DNA of 50,514 nt. Origin: Elusimicrobiaceae bacterium. GTDB taxonomy: Bacteria > Elusimicrobiota > Elusimicrobia > Elusimicrobiales > Elusimicrobiaceae. Each line of letters starts with the position of its first letter. Positions within the stretch are counted from its first letter, which is position 1. Location: contig JAFQAA010000021.1 in NCBI GenBank assembly GCA_017417005.1, positions 1-50,514 on the forward strand. Reading direction: 5' to 3'. The notes under the pieces were generated by a model, which made no database searches, was not told where the DNA came from, and was given only the letters and a program-made list of their open reading frames with translations. The position numbers and the translations under genes are program-made. Positions 2,252-8,208 of the stretch are shown here, piece after piece.

Positions 2252-2339
2252 GGAGAGGTGGCCGAGTGGTTGAAGGCGCAGTCCTGGAAAGACTGTATAC
2301 TCCAAAAGGGTATCGAGGGTTCGAATCCCTCCCTCTCCG
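2252..2339 (+). tRNA. tRNA-Ser (anticodon GGA)
   Basis: 88 nucleotides. The acceptor stem GGAGAGG pairs with CCTCTCC and the discriminator is G. The anticodon stem CAGTC/GACTG encloses CTGGAAA, giving anticodon GGA, which reads UCC and UCU. The long variable arm typical of serine tRNAs (ATACTCCAAAAGGGTATC) is present, and the T arm GAGGG-TTCGAAT-CCCTC is intact. CCA is not encoded and must be added. A terminator follows directly. Confidence 0.97.
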
Positions 2340-2340
2340 A

Positions 2341-2378
2341 TAAATTTAAACCCCGCTTAATGCGGGGTTTTAAATTTA
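2341..2378 (+). terminator. Terminator after tRNA-Ser
   Basis: CCCCGC-TTAAT-GCGGGG flanked by TAAATTTAAA and TTTTAAATTTA makes a stem of about 16 bp with one bulge, followed by a T run. It is nearly symmetric and could work on both strands. Confidence 0.85.
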
Positions 2379-2379
2379 T

Positions 2380-2542
2380 GGGGAGTGGAGTGAAGCAAAC
2401 TGCTTTGCTTCATGTTGGGATTCGAAAGGCGGAGCGATGTTTTTGTTTGAGGTGCTTTTGCACCGAAAGGCAAAAACCGCGAGCCCGGGCTGGAGCAAAT
2501 TTCGTCAGAAATTTGACGAAAGCCGAATTCCCTCCCTCTCCG
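2380..2542 (+). repeat. Hairpin-rich element ending in a second tRNA-Ser 3' end
   Basis: No gene fits here. Three hairpins are visible: TGAAGCAAA-CTGC-TTTGCTTCA (2391-2412); GGTGC-TTTT-GCACC (2451-2464), with TTTTTG/CAAAAA outside it (2440-2445 and 2471-2476); and two mutually exclusive folds, CAAATTTC-GTCA-GAAATTTG (2496-2515) and TTTCGTCA-N6-TGACGAAA (2500-2521). The segment ends GAATTCCCTCCCTCTCCG, matching the tRNA-Ser 3' end (GAATCCCTCCCTCTCCG) except for one extra T. Its first bases GGGGAG can pair with CTCTCC at the end. A second terminator follows. It may be a tRNA-derived repeat, a small RNA or an attachment-site remnant. Confidence 0.6.
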
Positions 2543-2550
2543 TAAAATTT

Positions 2551-2576
2551 AAAAGCACCCTTTTGGGTGCTTTTTA
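2551..2576 (+). terminator. Terminator after the tRNA-Ser-like element
   Basis: AAAAGCACCC-TTTT-GGGTGCTTTTT, a 10-bp stem with a T run. Its flanks (AAATTTAAAA and TTTTTAATTTA) mirror those of the terminator after tRNA-Ser while the GC stem differs. Confidence 0.85.
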
Positions 2577-2635: not shown

Positions 2636-3385
2636 ATGAAAAAAAATATTTTTTTATTTTTAGGCATTATCAGTCTTATGGCGTGTGGCACTTTTGAGCA
2701 ACAAGCATTTAACTGGAGAGGCCAAAATTTTGATAATCTTGTTGTTAAATACGGGGTGCCAACTTCCCAATACACTTTACAAGATGAAAGTGTTGCTTAT
2801 TCCTTTGTAAAACCTTGCCAATATACCCAAGGCCAAGAAGAAGTTGTGGTGGTGGTAAATACAGATAACACTATATATGATATTTCTAATGTAAGCCGTT
2901 GCAGTTCCCCTTCTACAGAAATATATTATACGGAATATGTTACCACCCAACCAGTATATGTAAAAGGAAATAGACATAAAAGAACTCCGCCGCCACCTCA
3001 TCATGTTAATCCTAAACCGGCACCGGCACCTGCTCCAAAACCAAAACCTGCGCCTGCTCCTGCACCAAGACCAGCACCGGCTCCAGCTCCTGCACCCGCG
3101 CCTACATCTGCACCTACACCAGCTCCCGCACCAACGCCGGCTATTGTAAAAAATACAGCAAGTAAAAATCCGATAGTCAATAAACTTGTAGAGAGCGTCA
3201 ATAAGAAAGAGCAGGCTAAACAAGAAAAGCGCGAAGCCTCAAGCAAGGAGAACAAAGAAGGCGGAATATTAAAAAACATAAGTCAACAAAAAAATAATAT
3301 CCTTGCCAAAGCCGAAACAAAAAAGGAAAATTCAAATGATACTAAAACATCCAAGAAATCTATATTAAAGACATTAAAAAAATAA
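2636..3385 (+). CDS. Lipoprotein with Pro-Ala repeat stalk
   Basis: 249 residues from ATG 2636, which has AAGGAGG seven bases upstream; an earlier in-frame ATG at 2606 lacks one. The start MKKNIFLFLGIISLMACG is a lipoprotein signal with lipobox LMAC, so the protein should be lipid-anchored. A globular part (to about residue 115) is followed by a run of PAPAP-type repeats with Lys, Arg and Thr substitutions (DNA 3008-3145), then a Lys/Glu-rich tail. Such a rigid stalk could span the periplasm or hold a domain away from the membrane. I do not recognise the family. It stands alone between two terminators. Confidence 0.85.
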   Translation: MKKNIFLFLGIISLMACGTFEQQAFNWRGQNFDNLVVKYGVPTSQYTLQDESVAYSFVKPCQYTQGQEEVVVVVNTDNTIYDISNVSRCSSPSTEIYYTEYVTTQPVYVKGNRHKRTPPPPHHVNPKPAPAPAPKPKPAPAPAPRPAPAPAPAPAPTSAPTPAPAPTPAIVKNTASKNPIVNKLVESVNKKEQAKQEKREASSKENKEGGILKNISQQKNNILAKAETKKENSNDTKTSKKSILKTLKK

Positions 3386-5617: not shown

Positions 5618-8208
5618 AAAAGAGATTTTGGTTTTTCGCCGTAATAGGCCTTTGTAAAAATTTCCTTAATTTCGCTAACTAAGGGATAGCGCGCATTACC
5701 GCCGGTGCACTGGTCATCAAAGGCAAGTTCACTCATTTCATCTAGTTTGGCAAAAAACTCTTTTTCATCAATGCCATATTCTTTAATTGATTTAGGAATA
5801 TCAAGTTGCTCTTTAAGTTTTTCAATTTCCCTAACCAAAGCAGCAACGCGGCCATCTTTATCAAGGTCTTCGCCAAGGTGTAAAAACTGGGCAATTTTGG
5901 CATATCTTCCCTTTACAAAAGGATATTTATATTGAGGGAAAAGCCCTTGCTTTGTTGGTTTATCCGTGGCGTTAAACTCAATAATATAACTAATCAACAA
6001 AGCATTAGCCAGCCCGTGCGGCACATGGAACATACCGCCAAGTTTATGCGCCATAGAATGACATAAGCCCAAAAACGCATTGGCAAAAGCCATACCGGCA
6101 ATAGTTGCCGCGTAGTGCATTTTTTCCCTTGCTATTGGTGCTTCTGCTCCCTTGTCATAAGACTCTTTAAGATATTTAAAAATAAGTCTTAAAGCTTCAA
6201 GTGCCTGGCCTTCTGTAAAATTGGTTGACATTATGGAAGTGTAAGCCTCTATTGCGTGCACCATAACATCAAGGCCGGAATAAGCCGCAAGTTTTGGCGG
6301 CATATTCATAACAAAATCAGGGTCCACTATTGCCATATCAGGCGTAATTGCATAATCGGTTATGGCGTATTTTGTGTTTGTTCTTTCATCTGTAATAATG
6401 GTAAAAGGTGTTACTTCTGAGCCGGTGCCTGAGGTTGTGGGTATTGCCACCAAAACAGATTTTTTTGAACTATGGGGAATACTATAAATACGCTTTCTGA
6501 TATCCATAAATCTGGTGGCAATATCTTCAAAGGAAAGGTGCGGATTTTCGTGCATAAGCCAAATCATCTTAGCAGCATCCATTGGCGAACCGCCACCAAG
6601 ACCGATAAATAAATCAGGTTTAAAATTTTCCGTCATTTTTAAAGCAGAGTTTATTGTAGCAATATTTGGGTCCGGCAGGACACCACTGAAAACTTCAAAA
6701 GAAATACCCAACTTTTCAAGAACATCTGCCACTTTTTTAACATAACCGCAAGTTTCCATAGTTTTATCGGTTATAATTAAGGCGCGTTTTTTATCTTTAA
6801 GTTCGCTAAGTCCAATTTCCAGGGAACCGCGTTTAAAGTAAATTTTCGGCGGAACGCGATACCAAAGCATATTTTCGCGTCTTTGGGCAACAGCTTTAAT
6901 ATTTAAAAGGTGTTTTACACCGATATTTTCACTTACGGAATTACCGCCCCAAGAACCGCAACCAAGCGTAAGAGAAGGGGCAAGTTTAAAATTGTAAACA
7001 TCACCAATAGCCCCTTGGGAAGAAGGCATATTGATTAAAACGCGGCCTGTATGCATATATTTTTCAAAAAACTCTATATGCTCTTTATTTGTTTCTTCGG
7101 TATATAAAACAGAGGTATGGCCGGCGCCGCCAAGTTCAACTAAGGCCTCAGCCGTTTTTACAGCGTGTTTAAAATCGTCAGATTTATAGCAGGCAAGTAT
7201 GGGGGAAAGTTTTTCGTGCGAAAAAACTTCCTCCCCGCCGATTTTATCACATTTTGCAATTAAAATTTTTGTATCTTGCGGCACTTTTAAACCTGCCATA
7301 TCAGCAATTTTAAAAGCACTTTGCCCGACTATTGCGGAGTTTAATTTTACGCCGTCAGGCATAATGGTTTTTGCTAGAGAGGCTTTTTCCTTATCATTTA
7401 AAATATAGCAACCACGCAACTTAAATTCCGCCAAAACTTCTTCGTAAACTGGCGCGCAAATTATTATAGCTTGCTCGCTTGCACAAATAACGCCGTTATC
7501 AAAAGTTTTACTCATAATAACAGAACTTACAGCCATTTTAATATTGGCAGTTTCGTCAATTACCACGGGTGTATTGCCAGCACCAACGCCAATTGCCGGT
7601 TTGCCCGAACTATAAGCCGCGTGCACCATACCGGGCCCGCCGGTGGCTAAAATTAAATTGACACCCGGGTGCTTCATAAGAGCATCGCTTAACTCGGTAG
7701 AAGGGTTTTCTATCCAGCCGATAATATTTTGGGGTGCGCCTGCTTTAACGGCTGCTTCAAGCACAATTTGGGCTGCCTTGATAGTTGATTTTTTGGCTCT
7801 TGGATGGGGTGAAAAAATTATGCCGTTTCTTGTTTTTAAAGCAAGCAGAGATTTAAAAATTGCCGTAGAAGTTGGGTTTGTTGTTGGCACAACGCCGGCA
7901 ATAAGGCCGATAGGCTCTGCCACTTGGGCATAACCAAAGGAATCATCATCACTTATTACACCGCAAGTTTTTGTATCTTTATAATTGTTATAAATATATT
8001 CCGAAGCAAAGTGATTTTTAATAACTTTATCTTCCATAACGCCCATAGCGGTTTCTTCCACCGCCATTTTGGCAAGTTCTATTCTTGCGCGGGAAGCGGC
8101 AATAGCTGCTGCTTGAAAGATTTTATTAACTTTGCTTTGACTAAAAGTGCTATATTCTTTTTGTGCTTTTTTTACTTTTTCAACAATTAAATCAAGTTCT
8201 GCTGGCAA
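5614..8208 (-). CDS. adhE: Bifunctional aldehyde/alcohol dehydrogenase
   Basis: 864 residues, near the usual 860-890. The N-terminal half is a CoA-acylating aldehyde dehydrogenase with the active Cys in FDNGVICASEQ. The C-terminal half is an iron-dependent alcohol dehydrogenase with GGGSPMDAAK, DPDFVMNMPP and the His-rich iron site in LGLCHSMAHKLGG and FHVPHG. Together they reduce acetyl-CoA to ethanol with two NADH, the main redox outlet of many fermenters; the enzyme often forms filaments (spirosomes). The start is TTG at 8208, supported by AAAGGGGG five bases upstream. It heads the adhE-trmL-MFS transcript. Confidence 0.97.
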   Translation of the reverse strand: MPAELDLIVEKVKKAQKEYSTFSQSKVNKIFQAAAIAASRARIELAKMAVEETAMGVMEDKVIKNHFASEYIYNNYKDTKTCGVISDDDSFGYAQVAEPIGLIAGVVPTTNPTSTAIFKSLLALKTRNGIIFSPHPRAKKSTIKAAQIVLEAAVKAGAPQNIIGWIENPSTELSDALMKHPGVNLILATGGPGMVHAAYSSGKPAIGVGAGNTPVVIDETANIKMAVSSVIMSKTFDNGVICASEQAIIICAPVYEEVLAEFKLRGCYILNDKEKASLAKTIMPDGVKLNSAIVGQSAFKIADMAGLKVPQDTKILIAKCDKIGGEEVFSHEKLSPILACYKSDDFKHAVKTAEALVELGGAGHTSVLYTEETNKEHIEFFEKYMHTGRVLINMPSSQGAIGDVYNFKLAPSLTLGCGSWGGNSVSENIGVKHLLNIKAVAQRRENMLWYRVPPKIYFKRGSLEIGLSELKDKKRALIITDKTMETCGYVKKVADVLEKLGISFEVFSGVLPDPNIATINSALKMTENFKPDLFIGLGGGSPMDAAKMIWLMHENPHLSFEDIATRFMDIRKRIYSIPHSSKKSVLVAIPTTSGTGSEVTPFTIITDERTNTKYAITDYAITPDMAIVDPDFVMNMPPKLAAYSGLDVMVHAIEAYTSIMSTNFTEGQALEALRLIFKYLKESYDKGAEAPIAREKMHYAATIAGMAFANAFLGLCHSMAHKLGGMFHVPHGLANALLISYIIEFNATDKPTKQGLFPQYKYPFVKGRYAKIAQFLHLGEDLDKDGRVAALVREIEKLKEQLDIPKSIKEYGIDEKEFFAKLDEMSELAFDDQCTGGNARYPLVSEIKEIFTKAYYGEKPKSLL

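Follow-up and report, generated by a model that had tools for sequence, protein, structure and literature searches.

Behind the tRNA genes of Elusimicrobiota and Patescibacteria we find a family of short, folded DNA elements, apparently undescribed so far, and we put the chances as even that these are non-autonomous mobile elements for which the 3' end of a tRNA gene is the attachment site. Mobile elements are normally tied to fixed ends or to a fixed attachment site; the ends of this element follow its target, with one core accompanied by antisense and sense copies of whichever tRNA adjoins it. If these arms arise on insertion, they would represent a new way of choosing and matching a target, with relevance to programmable insertion, and if the element is instead a host RNA, it would make up an unannotated class of tRNA-linked RNA, frequent in two phyla of which little has been cultivated. 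In both cases, a family of hundreds of strongly covarying members, missing from Rfam 15, can now be tested.

The window, by which we mean the whole 50,514-nt stretch analysed (contig JAFQAA010000021.1), comes from an Elusimicrobiota genome and holds one such element as a non-coding segment of about 160 nt (2380-2542), 3' of a gene for tRNA-Ser(GGA). All features described here lie on the forward strand. The host tRNA (2252-2339), called by ARAGORN and by the Rfam tRNA model with 60.4 bits, carries C56 of its T-loop at 2322, and at this nucleotide begins the first copy of a direct repeat, recognized by repeat analysis, that runs through the tRNA 3' end and terminator 1 (2322-2379; stem CCCCGC/GCGGGG at 2351-2356/2362-2367). 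The element opens with a partial antisense copy of the 3' strand of the tRNA acceptor, GGGGAGTGGAG (2380-2390), assigned from an inverted-repeat match and a family statistic. It continues with a paired hairpin, H1 (2390-2413), defined by window repeats and the family alignment and enclosing an invariant AACTGCTT with the loop CTGC (2398-2405), and with an antisense copy of the 3' half of the T-stem and T-loop, GGGATTCGAA (2417-2426), 10 nt that are 100% complementary to 2320-2329. The core that follows consists of two domains, both delimited by alignment, covariation and a covariance model: the first (2427-2486) combines a covarying stem, an invariant GTTT...AAGGC internal loop and a variable hairpin, and the second (2487-2523) is a covarying hairpin with a GTCA loop at 2504-2507. 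Next comes the tRNA 3' end in sense orientation, copied from C56 to the end with one extra T (2524-2542); according to repeats, fold and covariance model it pairs with the antisense arms. Repeat analysis places terminator 2, with the stem GCACCC/GGGTGC, at 2545-2582 as part of the second direct-repeat copy; it belongs to the duplicated target. One repeat unit measures 203 bp (2380-2582), as shown by comparison with an empty site.

An earlier note, made from the sequence alone, had reported that the end of tRNA-Ser recurs 203 bp further on with one extra T, and this is borne out by a 54-nt repeat (D1, 2326-2379 against 2529-2582) that is 76% identical and includes both terminators. It was also right that the two terminators share AAATTTAAA flanks around different stems (CCCCGC against GCACCC), both of which are fully paired. 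The strongly folded segment that it described between the copies has a predicted energy of -73.9 kcal/mol over 2380-2543, with z = -6.05 and none of 200 shuffles as good, and in this fold the initial GGGGAG does pair with the duplicated tRNA end like an acceptor stem. The stretch 2382-2542 scores 129 bits (E = 1.4e-36) against the family covariance model, the window copy being among the 57 sequences used to train it.

Two further observations concern the surroundings of the window element. The two terminator copies at its locus (2342-2379 and 2545-2580), and likewise those at L066, are unlike in their stems, yet every change on one side is fully compensated on the other; wobble intermediates are lacking, as in the element. 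Directly downstream, positions 2637-3385 encode a putative lipoprotein, conserved in genome G006, which is short and contains a long stretch rich in Pro and Ala (PAPAP).

The guess of a tRNA-linked repeat family, one of several offered in the note, has proved correct, with independent copies following tRNA genes at hundreds of loci; the search it had proposed, behind other tRNA genes of this and other genomes, found them across nearly all isotypes in the two phyla. In the window genome itself, segments akin to this one stand after genes for tRNA-Val, tRNA-Ser (three), tRNA-Leu (two) and tRNA-Met (one). With a 101-nt query from the core, 45 of 60 relatives gave matches at E <= 1, chance-level ones included, and the strong matches fell mainly within the same family as the window genome. 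At the loci fetched from relatives, the element stands about 50-60 nt 3' of the tRNA, on the same strand and at many isotypes, in some cases in tandem at 190-210 bp. A degenerate DNA pattern run over GTDB genomes picked out at least 118 stretches. Among the matches listed, almost all belong to Elusimicrobiota and Patescibacteria, the latter including Moraniibacteriota, Kaiserbacteria, Lloydbacteria, Campbellbacteria, Saccharibacteria and others, and a tRNA lies upstream of most. Some pattern matches are false positives, among them L115, L146, L172, L175, L178, L196 and L220, and the covariance model found no match in the seven genomes of other groups from which these come.

Covariance model R1 detected the element in 100 of the 248 Elusimicrobiota genomes sampled, and covariance-model searches detected it in 37 of 287 sampled from Patescibacteria. 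The highest count, 28 matches, was reached in the 0.9-Mb genome of the patescibacterium G259, whose copies adjoin about 18 different tRNA genes at the loci inspected. The distribution is patchy, and near-complete genomes of the same genus, G001, G008, G012 and G017 among them, are without the element in the covariance-model search. Phage, plasmid and E. coli sequence collections gave no match, and IMG/VR gave one real match, L224 (UViG_3300033463_005745); the element there adjoins genes resembling UDP-glucose epimerase and serine acetyltransferase, and that end of the contig looks chromosomal, not viral. In Rfam 15, searched both at E <= 1 and at the gathering threshold, only tRNA and weak or tRNA-overlapping matches appeared and no family fits the element, and a search of openly accessible journal papers found no description of it.

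The anatomy seen in the window recurs in 156 tRNA-adjacent copies. The tRNA, usually with its terminator, is followed by the antisense acceptor 3' strand, H1 with the invariant AACTGCTT, the antisense T-stem and T-loop, the core with its GTTT...AAGGC motif and GTCA-loop hairpin, the sense tRNA 3' end and often a copy of the terminator. The direct repeat begins at C56 in most loci, with peaks 18, 19 and 21 nt before the tRNA end. Moreover, the arms are specific to the neighbouring gene: the longest match of the antisense T-arm averages 8.35 nt to its own tRNA and 4.62 nt to other isotypes, the corresponding values for the antisense acceptor part are 5.10 and 3.30 nt, and none of 2000 permutations equalled either result. 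Among the Patescibacteria loci, an antisense match of at least 9 nt occurs downstream of 32 of 48 tRNAs and upstream of none of the 48, and all but one of the downstream matches lie 48-79 nt past the tRNA. In Elusimicrobiota copies the antisense site is split by H1, whereas some copies in Patescibacteria, such as L325 at tRNA-Arg(CCT), lack H1, and their antisense to the tRNA 3' end runs unbroken for 16-18 nt.

Near-identical cores occur at different tRNAs, each with a different H1 and different arms, and the arms of H1 can be wholly unlike between such copies and yet perfectly paired. The nearest core in another genome sits at a different tRNA in 82 of 101 comparisons; the 19 that share a tRNA, against 4.7 expected, point to a weak tendency of lineages to stay with one tRNA. 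Within a genome the copies vary, with a mean core identity of 0.72, and are therefore not the product of a recent burst. Both observations weigh against mobility. A second core type in G259 (L327 at 1700-1900, L334, L337, L338, L340 and L342) leaves H1 and the antisense arm unchanged and has the body GAAAAGGTTCTCCC...GGGAAACCTATACTG...CGTAG; the arms apparently occur with cores of more than one family.

Several loci depart from the common plan. Two loci, L182 and L198 (in Patescibacteria and a further genome), have an H1 lengthened to a perfect palindrome of about 20 bp made from the immediate upstream sequence, and lack the antisense T-arm. At L163 (Kaiserbacteria; reverse complement, ~7580-7830), the tRNA-Glu ahead of the element is cut short in the T-arm, an intact tRNA-Glu lies just downstream, and the antisense arm of the element fits the altered flank. 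Intact elements with no adjoining tRNA are found at L214 (3767) and at L097, whose arms fit tRNA-Asp, which would be consistent with loss or relocation of the tRNA. Finally, tRNA-like sequences with an extra D-arm hairpin stand beside intact tRNAs in G259 and G258 (L339 for tRNA-Thr, L349 and L352 for tRNA-Lys), and either tRNA copies that have been disrupted or a different kind of insertion into tRNA genes may account for them.

Evidence for the fold comes from an alignment of 57 sequences (A1), the window copy included, and a structure of 39 pairs. Here 94.5% of the cells pair, two-sided changes are seen in 31 of the 39 pairs, and cells with a double change number 557, compared with 67-94 in a control with partners slid. 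G-T pairs account for 1.1% in the element and 6.2% in the tRNA stems of the same loci, about 5.6-fold fewer (Fisher p ~1e-14), and outnumber A-C pairs 22 to 6 (p = 0.004). The tRNA-sense strand is the better folder in 57 of 57 sequences, a difference in folding energy of which a composition-matched control accounts for about half. From this we infer that the fold belongs to the tRNA-sense strand and tolerates little wobble, which would suit single-stranded DNA, or arms copied from each other, better than ordinary RNA.

Part of this evidence could also be expected of a host-beneficial structured RNA tied to tRNA genes, one that selection maintains and that gene duplication and horizontal transfer have spread; as a cis element or as a sponge, for example, it might affect the 3' maturation, the stability or the termination of tRNAs. 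The intact structure with compensatory changes at orthologous loci, the better folding of the tRNA-sense strand, the terminator copy after the element, its position behind many tRNAs in some Patescibacteria and its antisense to the tRNA 3' end all fit such a role, whereas the depletion of wobble relative to tRNA stems, the terminator that usually stands between the tRNA promoter and the element, and the gaps among near-complete genomes of one genus do not. Furthermore, the family shows what mobile repeats typically show, namely empty sites that are precise, tandem arrays and solo-H1 remnants, and we consider a host RNA unlikely. A tRNA-derived small RNA with its own terminator, also guessed in the note, is a possibility; the second terminator belongs to the duplicated target.

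Arms copied from each other are also central to the idea that the family is a mutational by-product, in which DNA palindromes near tRNA genes undergo repeated correction and duplication through template switching but are not truly mobile, and quasi-palindrome correction copies one arm onto the other. This would explain why changes in the helices come as perfect two-sided replacements, wobble intermediates being almost absent, why terminator stems likewise change in compensated form (in the window and at L066) and why some H1 arms are extended perfect palindromes of the flank (L182, L198), but not why invariant loops and core motifs are common to two phyla, why the same core occurs at many isotypes or why single units are precisely present or absent. 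As an account of the whole family we think it improbable; quasi-palindrome correction may be how the arms adapt.

Comparisons of orthologous loci show such single units directly. At the window locus, genome G002 (L246) has an empty site in which the tRNA and terminator are followed by the flank TTGCAATAATTT, which in the window comes after terminator 2. G006 carries the same insertion as the window, in decay, and G007 a different, partly deleted copy, so that the outcome which the earlier note had named as refuting it, absence from close relatives or an assembly artefact, does not hold; G005 has tandem units at tRNA-Ser(GGA). In another genus, two loci at tRNA-Leu(GAG), L372 of G284 and L375 of G192, are identical at 192 of 200 upstream positions and differ in length by exactly 189 bp, that is by one unit with a duplication of about 53 bp that extends from the T-loop to just past the T-run of the terminator. 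The note's further guess of an integration footprint thus stands, insofar as a filled site has one unit more than an empty one, together with a target duplication.

Among 103 scored duplications, 29 end within -4..+9 of the end of the T-run, 24 inside H1 and 14 close to the 3' end of the tRNA; another 22 reach into a second unit. Tandem arrays with a unit spacing of 190-210 bp are present, as are mixed-subtype states and solo-H1 remnants (L382, L388), and the structure is kept intact at orthologous loci. Gain and loss look alike in the filled and empty pairs: an empty site may go back to a later loss across the direct repeat and need not be a pre-insertion state, and G192 plausibly lost its unit when the duplicated stretches recombined.

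If the family is mobile, the tRNA-sense strand would become single-stranded and fold, its antisense and sense arms making a helix that reproduces the sequence of the tRNA T-arm and acceptor. A recombinase or strand-transfer reaction would join the folded strand at the T-loop, and the arms would be copied from the target upon insertion or corrected against it later, so that each copy would bear ends that match the tRNA beside it. The long duplications would then recombine with each other and so produce tandem arrays, precise empty sites and solo-H1 remnants. The matching arms require explanation under every model, be it copying at insertion or later correction. In its most far-reaching form, the proposal describes 'chameleon' mobile elements of Elusimicrobiota and Patescibacteria that find tRNA genes by base pairing and have their ends rewritten from the target at each insertion, with any tRNA usable; this we put forward tentatively, as a possibility somewhat short of probable.

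The element has no gene and would therefore be mobilised in trans or by host functions. Our leading candidate, unproven and chosen purely by analogy, is a tyrosine recombinase of the T-loop or Xer type acting on a folded strand whose arms recreate the tRNA sequence, because the C56 breakpoint lies in the 7-nt T-loop and complete and partial tRNA copies occur together. Strand exchange by class II tRNA integrases has been proposed to take place in the T-loop (PMC1762012), and integration into tRNA genes usually leaves one complete and one partial tRNA copy (PMC9897764). In a general PF00589 search, extra tyrosine recombinases did not track copy number and XerC/D-like genes were found everywhere. 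No recurrent mobile gene was seen near the element, recurring neighbours being only housekeeping or pilin-like. A Y1 (HUH) transposase was rejected as the driver, since Y1_Tnp (PF01797) does not correlate with the element and is missing from the high-copy genomes G022, G024, G026, G027, G029 and G033.

Reverse transcriptase was rejected on the same ground of no correlation with copies: RVT_1 is patchy and missing from carriers that include G005, G006, G007 and G010, an absence that in draft genomes is not absolute. This bears on a retroelement-like cycle, in which the antisense copy would be a primer-binding site for the tRNA 3' end, the duplication of tRNA 3' end and terminator would be LTR-like, and cDNA would be inserted at the end of a terminated tRNA transcript. 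The layout of repeat, tRNA-antisense site, body and repeat is as such a cycle predicts, the unbroken antisense stretches in some Patescibacteria copies would serve as primer sites, and duplications often stop at the T-run of the terminator. However, many carriers are without a reverse transcriptase domain, the site is split by H1 in Elusimicrobiota, and depletion of wobble is unexpected for RNA; we also know of no tRNA-primed, LTR-like retroelement in bacteria. A cycle of this kind appears quite unlikely to us.

Returning to integration as the preferred reading, the closest comparison is with the islands and phages that integrate into tRNA genes by T-loop (class II) integrases, such as Ms6, which share with the family the T-loop breakpoint and a partial copy of the tRNA 3' end past an intact tRNA. 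In both, the identity block or direct repeat starts in the T-loop, here at C56 in most loci; for scars of tRNA integration in general, the block begins in the anticodon loop or the T-loop. Ordinary remnants of large islands or prophages (attR scars) would also show one complete and one partial tRNA copy and an identity block that starts at the T-loop, which is what integrative elements leave (PMC9897764; PMC1762012). That reading is already contradicted by the conserved, structured core, and units of 190-210 bp in tandem copies without integrase or cargo, together with an antisense copy and a terminator duplication that are not part of att scars, make it highly improbable. Islands and phages encode an integrase, whereas these units have no ORF, integrase or cargo; unlike them, the element is only about 200 bp long, has a covarying two-domain fold, contains an antisense tRNA copy, duplicates the terminator and is found at nearly all isotypes.

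Other known systems share individual features. MITEs and palindromic repeats, among them Correia elements, Rickettsia palindromic elements and REP/BIME, are likewise short, non-coding, multicopy, hairpin-rich and probably mobilised in trans, but the present element is strictly linked to tRNA genes. A MITE has fixed terminal inverted repeats in common with an autonomous transposon, whereas the inverted copies here are those of each locus's own tRNA end, and its target-site duplication is about 2-10 bp, against about 53 bp in the comparison of L372 with L375. The partner of REP/BIME, RAYT, is a Y1 transposase, a domain missing from high-copy genomes of our element. Integron cassettes with attC, and CTXphi-type sites, resemble the family, in our reading, in a folded single strand that could be the recombination substrate, in the conservation of its structure but not its sequence and in tandem units; however, attC has RYYYAAC/GTTRRRY boxes at its stem ends, a pair that inspection of the conserved columns of A1 did not reveal, and the element differs from cassettes in having no ORF and in inserting in tRNA T-loops.

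LTR retroelements with a tRNA primer-binding site have the same succession of repeat, tRNA-antisense site, body and repeat, but the element is bacterial and has no linked reverse transcriptase, its antisense site is usually split by a hairpin, and its repeat is the local tRNA end plus terminator. Structured non-coding RNAs of Rfam, such as group I and II introns, T-box and tmRNA, also have strongly covarying folds, yet no Rfam 15 model matches the element above threshold. Comparison of sequences suggests that the family may be counted as a new kind, since it differs from each known kind compared in at least one of the defining features tested.
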